Origin: Pontibacter sp. HSC-14F20
GTDB taxonomy: Bacteria > Bacteroidota > Bacteroidia > Cytophagales > Hymenobacteraceae
Length of the DNA: 64,000 nucleotides
Assembly: GCF_019599265.1 (NCBI RefSeq)
Contig: NZ_JAHZTC010000012.1
Span: 1 to 64,000 of the forward strand
Direction: 5' to 3'
Position numbers and translations under genes: made by a program. Of the stretch, positions 1 through 16,571 are shown piece by piece (position 1 is the first letter of the stretch; every line of letters starts with the position of its first letter). The notes below the pieces were generated by a model. That model ran no database searches. It was not told the origin of the DNA and saw only the letters and a list, made by a program, of their open reading frames with translations.

Positions 1-211
1 GGCCTGGCGCAGCTATGCCCTTACCAGAGCAAATACCCTGAAAAGAGCGGCAATCCTCTCCCGGAAACAGCAGAAAGTATCGTTCAATACCCTTCCAGGC
101 TCACCTCCGTTGGGCCAGCCCGCTACCTGAAAGCCCAAACAAGTAGTTCAGGGGCCAGCCTCTTCCGACTTAAAACCCATAACGGGTCGCACGGTTAGTG
201 CAACCACGGCT
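1..211. other. Left window edge, no confident gene
   Basis: I see no gene I can defend here. On the plus strand one frame is open from the window edge to a TAG at about 199-201, so a C-terminal fragment of a gene starting outside the window is possible. The translation shows no domain I recognise. The stretch belongs to the left part of the mobile region that ends at ssrA. Confidence 0.3.
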
Positions 212-406
212 TCATTGTCGGCACTCCGTACCCAACGAAGCCTTAGTTGTTGCTGCGCTGCTGAACATGCCTGCCTCGGGGACATGTTCCGAGAAGTGCA
301 GCCGCCCGGCCTCATCGCGGAACAAGTAATACGTTTCTCTTTCCTCGTGTTCAGGGTTTTCGCCCTTGCCTTTCGGGGCATTCGATGCATTTGGATTGTT
401 CTTCAT
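212..406 (-). CDS. Small hypothetical protein (64 aa)
   Basis: This is an unrecognised small, hydrophilic protein with an acidic and polar N-terminal half (NPEHEERETYYLFRDEAGRL, residues about 18-37) and no signal peptide or membrane segment. I prefer it to the overlapping minus-strand frame at 148-390 because its composition is protein-like, while the other is rich in Arg, Cys and Ser as expected of a shadow frame. No strong ribosome binding site precedes the ATG. Its neighbours are mobile-element genes, so it is probably an accessory gene of the island. No function can be assigned. Confidence 0.4.
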   Translation of the reverse strand: MKNNPNASNAPKGKGENPEHEERETYYLFRDEAGRLHFSEHVPEAGMFSSAATTKASLGTECRQ

Positions 407-812
407 TATAGGTGATTATTTATAGTTGAAAATCAGATAGGACGGCAAACAGGTAAACTTTAACTAGCATCCTTGCCGGTGGCAAAAGCCTGCAGTCCTT
501 TGGCTTTGCTGGCGGCTTTTGCCTTGCTGGGTTCCTTTCAAAGGTGGGGAACAAAGACCGGGGGTATTCACAAGGCGGGGCCACTTGGGGAAATTATACC
601 CAGGGAGCTCTGGGCGGGCCAGGGAGGCCGGGTAGCTGCTCTTGACGCGAAAACAGTCCGTTTACGGCGACTCCGATGGGCTGCGGGGCCTGAAGTGGGA
701 CATCCTGCTTGTTTTTTACCCGGAAAATTGTTTTTCACAAGTTGGGTTCAGCTTGTGAAAAGGGTGAAAGAAAACAGCGGATATTCGCTCTGCAACCATA
801 CAAGACAAGACA
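407..812. other. Non-coding stretch upstream of the HTH gene pair
   Basis: No believable gene lies here. A long plus-strand frame starting at 473 runs through it, but before 1082 its translation is low quality, and it becomes a real protein only from the internal ATG at 1082. The stretch holds the inverted repeat at 732-761, which may be an operator for the HTH gene that follows. Confidence 0.5.
732..761. promoter_or_regulatory. Inverted repeat TTTTCACAAG-N10-CTTGTGAAAA, candidate operator
   Basis: Perfect 10-bp arms separated by 10 bp, 52 bp before the HTH gene at 813. The arm CTTGTGAAAA recurs exactly at 1692-1701, in front of the XRE regulator gene. A shared dyad in front of two regulatory genes of one island suggests a repressor binding site, but this is inference. 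Confidence 0.4.
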
Positions 813-2345: not shown

Positions 2346-4155
2346 TTAATCCGCCCTGTAAGCCTGCTCCGGGTGGTTTGGCATAGCTGGTTCCGTATAC
2401 TGTAGCCTGCCTGCTTTCCGTAAGGGAGTAATATAATTTCTTAGTAAGTGTTTTTCATCTCTGTTCAGGATTGCAGCCAACTCTTTACTGTTTAAAGGCT
2501 TCCATTGGCAAAGATGAATGATTAGCCTATTGATCGCCTCTTTTGTATGCGTTCTTCTGCCTAGATCTTTGATCTCCCTTGCCAACTTTTCTGGTAACTC
2601 GTTTATGGAGGCATTCCCAACTGGTGCTATACTGTCCTGAGGTAGTGTGTTAAGCCCGCTAACTGGTGTGTTAAGCCTGGCAGGCAGGGTATTTCCGGAG
2701 ATATAATAAGTTGCCCGCCCTTTGCCTTTCAGTTCAAGCAGCTTGTTGTCTCTAAGCGCTCTGAGTTCTGCACTTGCCTTGTTCCCATCAAGGCCGCCCA
2801 GTTGCCTAAAGGTAGCATTATCTATAGCGCCAACTTCCCTGACAAAGATCAAGGCTTTCTTTTGGTTTTCACTTAAATCAAATTGTTTGAACTGCTGCAG
2901 CCAGCGAAGATCCTCCTCGCTTAAAAAATGATGCAAAAGCAGTCTGGCGGTAAATTGGTTACTGCTATGGTTGGACTCATACGTGGGAGGCACCATCCCA
3001 GCTTGATCCATTAATTTCCGCATGGTCCTGATGCCGCTTCCCTTTGTCTCTGCCAGGTTAGTTTCATGGAAGATGGCGGCAATAAAAGGGTTTCGCTGCT
3101 CCGATCCGGGCTCCCCCAGGTGATCTTCTGGTTTAAGGGAAAAGCCAGGGTTGATGATCTCTATACGATTGCCATACCTGATAATCTGGGTGGGCTGGTT
3201 TACTCGGTATGAGCGGTGCATCAACGCATTTACCAGGGCCTCACGCAGTACGCGTCCGGGTAATCCGATAGACTCGGCCTGAAGCTGCCCTTCAGGAAGC
3301 AGGAAGCCTTTGGGCAGATCATCGGCATGGCATTGTAGGCTCGCTGTAGTAGTATAAGCAAGGGGCCACGCATGTCTATGGTGGTAAAACGATTGTCAGG
3401 GTCAGCCACCCATTCGTTACCAGGCACGCGGATATAATCCAAACGGACAGCAGGCAATAGCCTTCTTTGGGCCATCCTGCTTCCGAACACCAGCAATCCG
3501 GCATACGTCAGATGTGCTGTGCCCGCATTTTTTTTATACAACCCAAGGAAATCAGCAGCTCCTCATCTGCAAAGGTTAGTTCCTCGGCATAAGGGTTTAC
3601 CCTGGCTCTCAGCGTCCTGTATGCCCTAATTGCATCTTCGTCGACATCTTCCCAGGTAGCATCTGTAACCAGAGCACTGTCAAATGTCTCGTTATGGTTA
3701 AAGAAGAGCAGCAAGTCATCTTCCGTGCAACGTTGGTCAGTTGGGCCTATTCTTCTGAAAGCTCCCCTGGGAAGGCCTTCATGCTTAAAATAAACCGGTT
3801 TCTGGGAGGCAGGGAGTTCAGGGACATAAATCTTGAGAACATTTAATCCACCAATGCTTTCCACAATAATCTCTGGTCTGATGGCCTGGTTAAAGCTCCC
3901 CGCACATTGAGAAGCCAGATCTGATTGTAGTTTGTCAGGGTTAGCGACACCAGTTACCTCGTAGGAAGGAAAGAGCGCACGTTCATCTCGCTCAACACCC
4001 AATACAATATAGCCACCATCCAGACCAGGCTCGTTAGAGAAGGCGCATACAGTTTCCATGATAGAACGGTCAATGGCGCTTCCTTTCTTGGCCTCTATCC
4101 GGGAGGTTTCATCTGAAGTATTCAACCGTTCAACTAGCTCCTTTCCTGAATTCAT
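2346..4155 (-). pseudogene. AlbA_2 (Schlafen-like) / ATPase-domain regulator, two frameshifts
   Basis: Three minus-strand frames join into one protein of about 600 aa. The first (from the ATG at 4155) is an AlbA_2 DNA-binding domain (ETSRIEAKKGSAIDRSIMET...GGYIVLGVERDE). The second continues through NAGTAHLTYAGLLVFG. The third carries the GHKL-type ATPase segment with REALVNALMHRSY, NPGF and KGSGIRTMRKLM, followed by winged-helix segments up to residue 600. The breaks lie at an A8 run on the coding strand (3528-3535), where one more A would keep the frame, and near 3327 (ATGCC/GATGAT), again one base short. Such proteins are putative regulators linked to defence and mobile regions. Two independent one-base losses point to a pseudogene, though assembly error in the homopolymer is possible for the first. 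Confidence 0.8.
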
Positions 4156-14699: not shown

Positions 14700-16571
14700 A
14701 TGGAAAATTTTGTAGTATCAGCGCGTAAATACCGTCCGGCCACGTTCGACAGCGTGGTGGGGCAGCACCATATCACCAACACCCTCAAAAACGCCATCAG
14801 CAGCCACCATTTGGCACAGGCATTTTTGTTCTGTGGACCGCGTGGTGTGGGTAAGACAACCTGTGCCCGTATTCTGGCAAAAACCATTAACTGCCAGAAC
14901 ATCACTCCGGAAGTGGAGGCCTGTAACGAGTGCGAATCGTGCCGCAGCTTCAATAGCAACAGCTCGTTCAACATCCATGAGCTCGATGCTGCTTCCAACA
15001 ACTCTGTGGAGGACATCCGCAACCTGGTGGAGCAGGTGCGCTATGCTCCGCAAACCGGCAAGTACAAGATCTACATCATAGATGAGGTGCACATGCTCTC
15101 GAACCAGGCCTTCAACGCTTTTCTGAAGACGCTGGAGGAGCCGCCTGCCTATGCCATTTTCATACTGGCCACCACCGAGCGGCACAAGATTATACCTACT
15201 ATCCTGTCGCGCTGCCAGATTTTCGATTTCAACCGAATCCGGATCGAGGACATGGTGCGCCACCTGGGCAACATCGCCCAAAAGGAAAGCATACAGGCCG
15301 AGCCCGATGCCCTGCACCTGATTTCGCAGAAAGCTGACGGCGCCCTGCGCGATGCTTTGTCGATCTTCGACCAGATGGTGACCTTCTCAGGCCATAATGT
15401 GACCTATAAGGCCACAGTCGAGAACCTGCACATCCTGGACTACGACTATTACTTCCGACTGACAGACCACTTGCTGGAGCAGAATTTATCGGGCTCGCTT
15501 TTGCTGTTTGACGAGATTCTGAAGAATGGTTTTGATGCGCACAACTTCCTGATAGGTATAGGCGAGCACTTCCGCAGCCTTTTGGTCTGCAAAGACCCGC
15601 AGACAATACAATTGCTGGAGGTGTCGGATAACATCAAAGCCAGGTATGCGGAGCAGTCTCAGAAGTCCTCTGTTTCGTTTCTTTTATCAGGGCTGAACCT
15701 GGTGAGCACCTGTGATACCAATTACAAGAGCAGCAAAAACCAGCGCCTGCATGTGGAGCTGTGCCTGATGAAAATGGCCCACCTGAATGCTGCCTTTAGT
15801 TTCGCGCAGGGAGGACCTGAATTAAAAAAAGCTAAGGTAGCAGCCCCGGCACCAGCCGCTACCAAGTCAGTTGGTGCCCCGCTTATACCATCGGCAGCCA
15901 TGCAGCAGCAAGGCGCGGCTATACCTTCAGAAAGTTTGCAACAGCACCACCAACAGGGTCATGTGCCTTCCGAAGAGTTGCAACAGCCACCTAAGCCACA
16001 GCACGTGACACCCGATGGCCGTTTATCGCCTCCGCAGGCACAGGTAACCCCTGCTCCCGCGCCAGTGCCCAAACGCCCGTCTATACCTGTGCCGCCTCAG
16101 AAAAAACTTGGTAAGCTGCCCAGCCTGAAAGACCTGCAAAATCCGCAGGCGGTTGTGGTGGAGACTGCCGTGGCCGAGGAAGAAGACGAAACAGCCTACG
16201 GAGCCGTCGCCCCACTCGACCAGGCCCGCCTGAATACGGTATGGCACGCCATCCTGCGTCGCAAAAAAGGCGAGAACATGATGGAGTATACCTTGCTCAA
16301 CCGCCAGTTCCACATCGGGGAAGGCAACGAGATTGTGCTGCACCTGGAGAATCACGTGATGATGGACCAGTTCACGAGTCTGCGCCCGGAGATTCTGCGA
16401 GAACTTAAGCAAGAAACCGGCAACCGCAGCATCAAACTGAGAGCCGAGGTTATAGAGGTGCAGGAAGGAAATAAACTATACACTTCGCAGGATAAATTCA
16501 ACTACCTGGCCGAGAAATACCCGGTGCTCGTCGATTTAAAGCAGCGCTTTGGGCTCGACACTGATTTCTAA
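14700..16571 (+). CDS. dnaX: DNA polymerase III subunit tau/gamma
   Basis: A 623-aa clamp-loader ATPase that opens and loads the sliding clamp and links polymerase cores. Domain I has Walker A GPRGVGKT (residues 46-53), a zinc knuckle with Cys65, 75, 78 and 81, and the Walker B segment IIDEVHML; the SRC arginine-finger motif follows (TILSRCQIFDF). Domain III ends near residue 370 (HLNAAFSFAQGG). A Pro/Gln/Ala-rich linker (about 380-500) leads to the C-terminal tau domain. I start at the ATG at 14700; a TTG 18 nt upstream overlaps the -7 box. At 15808-15831 there is a frameshift cassette that would give a 378-aa gamma-like form. Confidence 0.95.
   Translation: MENFVVSARKYRPATFDSVVGQHHITNTLKNAISSHHLAQAFLFCGPRGVGKTTCARILAKTINCQNITPEVEACNECESCRSFNSNSSFNIHELDAASNNSVEDIRNLVEQVRYAPQTGKYKIYIIDEVHMLSNQAFNAFLKTLEEPPAYAIFILATTERHKIIPTILSRCQIFDFNRIRIEDMVRHLGNIAQKESIQAEPDALHLISQKADGALRDALSIFDQMVTFSGHNVTYKATVENLHILDYDYYFRLTDHLLEQNLSGSLLLFDEILKNGFDAHNFLIGIGEHFRSLLVCKDPQTIQLLEVSDNIKARYAEQSQKSSVSFLLSGLNLVSTCDTNYKSSKNQRLHVELCLMKMAHLNAAFSFAQGGPELKKAKVAAPAPAATKSVGAPLIPSAAMQQQGAAIPSESLQQHHQQGHVPSEELQQPPKPQHVTPDGRLSPPQAQVTPAPAPVPKRPSIPVPPQKKLGKLPSLKDLQNPQAVVVETAVAEEEDETAYGAVAPLDQARLNTVWHAILRRKKGENMMEYTLLNRQFHIGEGNEIVLHLENHVMMDQFTSLRPEILRELKQETGNRSIKLRAEVIEVQEGNKLYTSQDKFNYLAEKYPVLVDLKQRFGLDTDF
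15808..15878 (+). promoter_or_regulatory. Candidate programmed -1 frameshift site in dnaX
   Basis: AGGGAG (15808-15813) stands 10 nt before an A7 run (15824-15830) read as TTA AAA AAA GCT. A -1 slip on A-AAA-AAA gives AGC TAA, so translation ends one residue later, after 378 aa and right at the end of domain III. A GGCACCA/TGGTGCC stem (15848-15854 with 15872-15878) lies downstream. E. coli dnaX uses AGGGAG, a 10-nt gap, A6G and a hairpin. Function here is inferred. Confidence 0.55.

Follow-up and report, generated by a model that had tools for sequence, protein, structure and literature searches.

A conserved slippery site in dnaX of Pontibacter appears to be served by a downstream pseudoknot rather than by an upstream Shine-Dalgarno element

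In Thermus thermophilus, dnaX undergoes transcriptional slippage at a run of nine A (A9). In E. coli, a −1 ribosomal frameshift in the same gene (Rfam family RF00382) gives a short gamma protein beside full-length tau. The purpose of gamma was long disputed, as a section of PMC5009743 sets out. The question raised by the dnaX gene considered here is whether it also makes a gamma form and, if so, by which route. An initial annotation of the 64,000-nucleotide stretch of DNA analysed (hereafter the window) proposed an E. coli-like cassette, in which an internal AGGGAG would stimulate slipping. Judged from comparison with relatives, dnaX very probably does make a gamma form in this organism, but not by the E. 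coli route; the conserved candidate stimulator seems to be a pseudoknot downstream of the slippery site, not AGGGAG.

The tau open frame occupies positions 14700..16571 of the plus strand (623 aa, stop included in the coordinates) and is assigned from family models and relatives. The ATG at 14700 was chosen as the start after aligning the gene with its relatives, and 18 nt upstream of it there is a TTG. The protein is a full-length member of the DNA polymerase III gamma/tau family, scoring 829 bits against NF011531 (cut-off 685) and 436 bits against TIGR02397 (cut-off 250). The letters given in the initial annotation are exact: AGGGAG at 15808–15813, the ten bases GACCTGAATT, seven A (A7) at 15824–15830 and then GCTAAG. 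The site reads TTA AAA AAA GCT AAG in the 0 frame and ATT AAA AAA AGC TAA in the −1 frame, in which AGC TAA (15830..15835, plus strand) supplies the final codon and the stop (15833–15835). A −1 slip thus meets a stop at once, as had been claimed. The +1 frame, reading CTA AGG TAG, also closes immediately (TAG, 15838..15840, plus strand). The computed −1 product has the proposed 378 residues (42.6 kDa) and ends right after domain III, for which Pfam DNA_pol3_gamma3 matches residues 246–363; computed tau has 623 residues and 69.7 kDa. On the two strands of the window together there is a single AGGGAG-N10-A6. By itself, an A7 run is nothing unusual there (six sense-strand runs of at least A7, including that of dnaX, in 42 ORFs covering 52 kb), and the A7 of dnaX therefore needs comparative evidence.

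This evidence comes from 50 genomes of the same genus, of which 49 were used in the codon analyses; one gene, L037, was excluded from these. AAAAAAGCTAAKGTAG is present exactly once per genome in all 50, each time in dnaX. Both the slippery heptamer A_AAA_AAA (15824..15830, plus strand) and the −1 stop are shared by 49/50; the exception is L037, in which the run is A6 and the −1 frame encodes tau. Five amino acids (Leu, Pro, Ser, Ala and Val) occur at residue 375 across the genus, yet the codon is always NNA; codons 376–380 show zero synonymous change among the 49 sequences, and the synonymous O/E of the heptamer is 0. Over the whole gene, the 7-codon windows with the lowest synonymous variation are those at the slippery site and at the codons of a downstream GGTGCC. 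A7 and the −1 TAA are thus kept beyond codon constraint, as the initial annotation had asked of relatives, and its proposal that a gamma-like form arises by a programmed −1 shift is supported by the invariance of heptamer and stop despite the variation of residue 375.

A further element downstream of the heptamer had not been mentioned, although the end coordinate given at the time, 15878, is its last base. The spacer GCTAA (15831..15835, plus strand; invariant in 50/50) separates the heptamer by 5 nt from stem 1, of which the 5' arm is GGTAGCAGC (15836..15844, plus strand) and the 3' arm GCCGCTACC (15855..15863, plus strand; low synonymous O/E at third bases). The outer part of this stem is GGTAG/CTACC. 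Inside its loop, GGCACC (15848..15853, plus strand) can pair with the later GGTGCC (15873..15878, plus strand) as stem 2. The two crossing helices make a potential H-type pseudoknot, with a loop 1 of 3 nt, a junction of 1 nt and a loop 3 of 9 nt in 45/50 genomes and of 12 or 15 nt in the other five. An X_XXY_YYZ heptamer followed by a structure at 5–8 nt, the range given in the relevant part of PMC4066793, is accordingly present. Viral and bacterial insertion-sequence signals for −1 frameshifting share the heptamer, the 5-nt spacer and crossing helices (potential ones here), and a passage of PMC5009743 states that pseudoknots can serve bacterial ribosomes in −1 shifting. Unlike those signals, the present one is in a chromosomal housekeeping gene and the shifted product would be the shorter one.

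Stem 2 is able to form in all 50 genomes (47/47 distinct rows); the three changes seen in it all leave a G-U pair, and GGTGCC moves with linker indels of 3 or 6 nt with its pairing kept. The outer five pairs of stem 1 are retained in 47/49, and the other two genomes, which are related, lose only the end pair 15836:15863, through changes on both sides. Further in, 24 of 47 rows fail to pair at 10:27 of this stem and 26 at 11:26. Constraint on the codons follows the helices. Five amino acids occur at residue 383, yet the third base of the codon is always the G that takes part in stem 2; in the 3' arm of that stem, O/E is 0.00 for GGT and 0.09 for GCC. Synonymous O/E is below 0.25 at 9/10 third bases in helices against 0/5 in loops, where it ranges from 0.40 to 1.38 (Fisher p 0.002); the tenth helix base, with an O/E of 1.02, belongs to a mismatch-prone inner pair. 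Both helices together (the outer five pairs of stem 1 and the six of stem 2) can form in 47/49 real genes, compared with a mean of 1.6% for codon-shuffled linkers. Sliding the partners cuts pairing from 92% to 24–54%, it being noted that the structure was itself derived from these sequences. By stacking energies, the pseudoknot beats nested folds in 50, 48 and 37 of 50 genomes at penalties of 7, 9.6 and 12 kcal/mol, values that were our own choice. Covariation was tried as proof of the pseudoknot and failed: per pair it is not above that of shuffles (0.020 versus 0.023; 47 distinct rows from one genus), because stem bases hardly vary within a single genus. The topology consequently rests on codon constraint and geometry, and the pseudoknot is the candidate fold in the cell.

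The alternative that survives best is a ribosomal −1 shift assisted by a plain hairpin, with stem 1 or stem 2 acting alone or the two alternating. Nested folds of −10 to −21 kcal/mol do exist. Of 12 folds printed, nine contain stem 1 and the other three stem 2; RNAalifold and the single fold of the window, neither of which can represent crossings, retain only stem 2 of the two. In a second genus, g23, a plain hairpin sits at an equal distance from the heptamer. Against this, both helices are constrained together and the partner of stem 2 sits in the loop of stem 1, and we regard a hairpin alone as unlikely. There is also only a hint of a trade-off amongst the three inner pairs of stem 1: 0/50 genomes lack all three, where shuffling (with relatedness ignored) would lead one to expect 11.2.

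Another alternative is transcriptional slippage, in which RNA polymerase would slip on the A7, as has been proposed for longer runs, and a mixture of mRNAs would give gamma. The named Bacteroidota loci (L111–L190) are the best 80 of 594 pattern matches, and 65 of these 80 have a run of at least nine A at the end of domain III, exactly ten in 50 cases; 15 are without one. In 64 of the 65, both of the other frames reach a stop within 15 codons. The 0 frame encodes tau in 47 and a different frame does so in 16, with 2 undecided. Within the same family, 36/38 genomes of other genera have A9–A11, 33 of them A10; the 38 were fetched from 100 such genomes, some being picked for a short open frame. 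This A9-or-longer layout is, by analogy, that of Thermus-like transcriptional slippage. The part of PMC3711429 in which Antonov et al. (2013) treat inverted dnaX genes describes nine of 17 with ten A; the 16 inverted genes amongst the 65 long-run loci of the best 80 are far more than those 17 would suggest.

The genus considered here shares with the Thermus A9 gene and the A10 dnaX genes described in PMC3711429 (in the portion concerned) the place of the site, a run of A and stops in both other frames, the last as at 64 of the 65 long-run loci. It has also been argued by Antonov et al. that dnaX genes with 7–9 A may use slippage (same passage). However, the run never reaches about nine A in this genus, being A7 in 49/50 and A6 in 1/50, as opposed to the A9–A11 of 36/38 fetched relatives, and it is followed by constrained RNA structure. 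Eighteen Hymenobacter-like A10 genes (L071–L082, L108–L110, L112, L113 and L115) show no constraint downstream, codons 1–21 having an O/E of 0.70–2.32 on a scale that differs from that of the genus values, the expectation being taken from N-terminal codons only; they are constrained at the A10 run and just upstream. Seven genes of genus g24 show no consistent downstream constraint either. A partial exception is provided by the Rufibacter-like genes, which, like the Hymenobacter-like ones, are named by the likeness of their dnaX to a record (L111, 87%, and L112, 74%, respectively). In 12 of these (L060–L067, L105–L107 and L111), synonymous variation is zero at codons 3–6 after A10, the GGAAGTTCCGGCGTAGCC region, and also at the codons just upstream of the run. 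The zeros after A10 weaken the contrast between short-run and A10 genes. Nevertheless, no A10 gene that was examined has the constraint pattern of the pseudoknot, so the downstream structure is mostly tied to the short run. Transcriptional slippage on A7 is thus, in our assessment, quite unlikely.

Some further observations on the relatives may be recorded. In the Hymenobacter-like A10 genes, synonymous changes are absent from AAC GGC GAG (codons −7 to −5 before the run), as though something upstream aided slippage. In L068, L069 and L070, also Hymenobacter-like, A9 or A11 runs move tau to the −1 or +1 frame, their A10 relatives having it in the 0 frame. L014 has a strong inverted repeat just past its dnaX match (3439–3493; Rfam Ref64 on both strands, below threshold), which is probably a terminator. 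In L114, a Cesiribacteraceae record, a tmRNA gene lies upstream of dnaX (91–460, minus strand; RF00023, 161 bits).

The initial annotation took the AGGGAG (15808..15813, plus strand, 10 nt upstream of the A run) as the main stimulator, pairing with 16S rRNA as in E. coli. Bacteroidota ribosomes largely ignore Shine-Dalgarno (SD) sequences. The window certainly has the right sequence and spacing. In addition, the anti-SD CCTCC exists in a congener, G030, in which the 16S ends GGATCACCTCCTTTCT; this was read from two copies, and the motif used did not match the copy in G060. No 16S was found in the assembly of the window or in that of G021. The protein bS21 is encoded, and prfB of the same genome retains its +1 frameshift cassette, AGGAGGTATCTTTGAC (L223, around 1495–1511). 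For the prfB of F. johnsoniae, the authors of PMC8710568 suggest, in the passage concerned, that a long pause may free the 16S tail for pairing; the same passage describes that tail as sequestered in F. johnsoniae and Bacteroidia ribosomes, which argues against AGGGAG here. Shifting at this prfB is reported in part of PMC12421855 to be inefficient.

Conservation gives AGGGAG no better support. It is exact in 5/49 members of the genus, and L002, the nearest relative fetched (98% identity over the protein), shows AGGAAGAAG in its place. The stretch upstream is predicted to pair with the anti-SD at −6.9 kcal/mol on average, as against −7.3 for codon-shuffled sequences. Codons 370, 371, 373 and 374 vary normally and Gly372 is mildly constrained (O/E 0.66). 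The RF00382 model matches the window site weakly, at 19.1 bits with a threshold of 35, and gave no match at E up to 5 in 18 loci including L001. Unlike the A7 and the −1 TAA, AGGGAG is not kept in relatives, and it was rejected as the stimulator, its poor conservation and unexceptional pairing making an E. coli-like cassette very unlikely. It may contribute some SD pairing in this one species; it is not what the genus conserves, and its presence is judged incidental. That nothing is recoded, and that a conserved linker peptide by itself produces the DNA pattern, is highly improbable: the peptide is well conserved and all 50 genomes belong to one genus, but peptide-neutral third bases are fixed while the neighbouring residues 375, 383 and 387 vary, and loop third bases do vary in the same sequences.

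We therefore return to the reading that we consider likely, from the pattern of conservation at the locus, namely a programmed −1 ribosomal frameshift at A_AAA_AAA with an H-type pseudoknot, yielding gamma beside tau. Ribosomes translating dnaX would reach A_AAA_AAA as the mRNA pseudoknot 5 nt downstream resists unwinding, and the two Lys-tRNAs (anticodon UUU) would slip back by one base on the tandem AAA codons. A slipped ribosome would read AGC and stop at TAA, giving a gamma of 378 aa with domains I–III; ribosomes that do not slip would make tau, of 623 aa. An internal SD would not be needed, which would suit a phylum that largely ignores such sequences. With E. coli dnaX the site shares the gene and the place within it, the tandem Lys codons, the immediate −1 stop, a short gamma (predicted here) with a full-length tau, a downstream RNA structure and a sole Lys tRNA with UUU. 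The differences are the potential pseudoknot, the unconserved SD-like element, the sub-threshold Rfam score and the heptamer: within the genus, A_AAA_AAG, the E. coli form, is found only in L037. A_AAA_AAA is much less shift-prone than A_AAA_AAG in E. coli (PMC5009743, in a passage), so a high rate of shifting is not a given here.

It might be thought that a different set of Lys tRNAs caused the change of mechanism. In the assembly of the window, the sole Lys tRNA seen is UUU (three genes among 40 tRNA matches). The A10 genome G156 likewise shows one Lys tRNA, UUU (29/30 fetched loci scanned, 43 tRNA matches). The suggestion is thus not supported, and the supply of tRNA offers no obvious explanation for the switch.

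In two settings the roles of the frames are inverted. L037, from one contig of G030, has A6; its 0 frame stops within three codons and the −1 frame at A_AAA_AAG encodes tau, with both helices intact. A homopolymer sequencing error in G030 is possible. When 11 ORFs of a G026 stretch were compared with G030, dnaX was split, five others matched with no frame break, although the stretch ended within one of them, and the remaining five lacked a match there. In genus g23, both genomes (L051 and L052) carry A_AAA_AAG and encode tau in the −1 frame; 5 nt past the heptamer a hairpin begins, GCCGGTA/TGCCGGC. L037 and g23 thereby resemble the inverted dnaX genes described in parts of PMC3711429 and PMC5009743, their 0 frame encoding gamma and their −1 frame tau, unlike the gene of the window, which has the ordinary order. 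If the inversions are real, tau in these genes would need the shift. Atkins et al. (2016) note, in the passage of PMC5009743 concerned, that at a rate close to 50% the two roles can be exchanged by altering a single base. A tree of 40 rows, of which 14 belong to the genus, places the genus and g23 apart from one another, but the branching between the two is weakly supported (88/72), and one loss of A10 is therefore indistinguishable from two.

Taken with the distribution of A runs, the conservation suggests that the genus swapped the A9–A11 RNA-polymerase slippage layout of most of its phylum for ribosomal −1 frameshifting driven by a pseudoknot; at least, this seems to be so. A bolder version would have the whole genus replacing A10 slippage by an SD-free, pseudoknot-dependent −1 shift with the anti-SD hidden, at a rate of about one half, such that a change in the run swaps the default between gamma and tau (as in L037, and as in g23 with another stimulator and a shift-dependent tau). 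We hold the chances of this to be evenly balanced, having thought them slightly better before the Rufibacter-like exception was taken into account.

Recoding of dnaX, inverted dnaX genes and pseudoknot frameshifting are each already known. Among the titles and abstract openings listed from the open-licence literature, we found no report of a pseudoknot as a dnaX stimulator, or of the case in this genus. If the reading is correct, the genus would provide a natural −1 signal in a bacterial housekeeping gene that depends on a pseudoknot and not on anti-SD pairing. As this signal would sit in a phylum with suppressed SD pairing, the part played by each stimulator could be tested in one reporter. 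Finally, genera of one family would have two mechanistically unrelated routes to gamma at one and the same place in the gene, which, if the reading holds, would argue that gamma itself is under selection.
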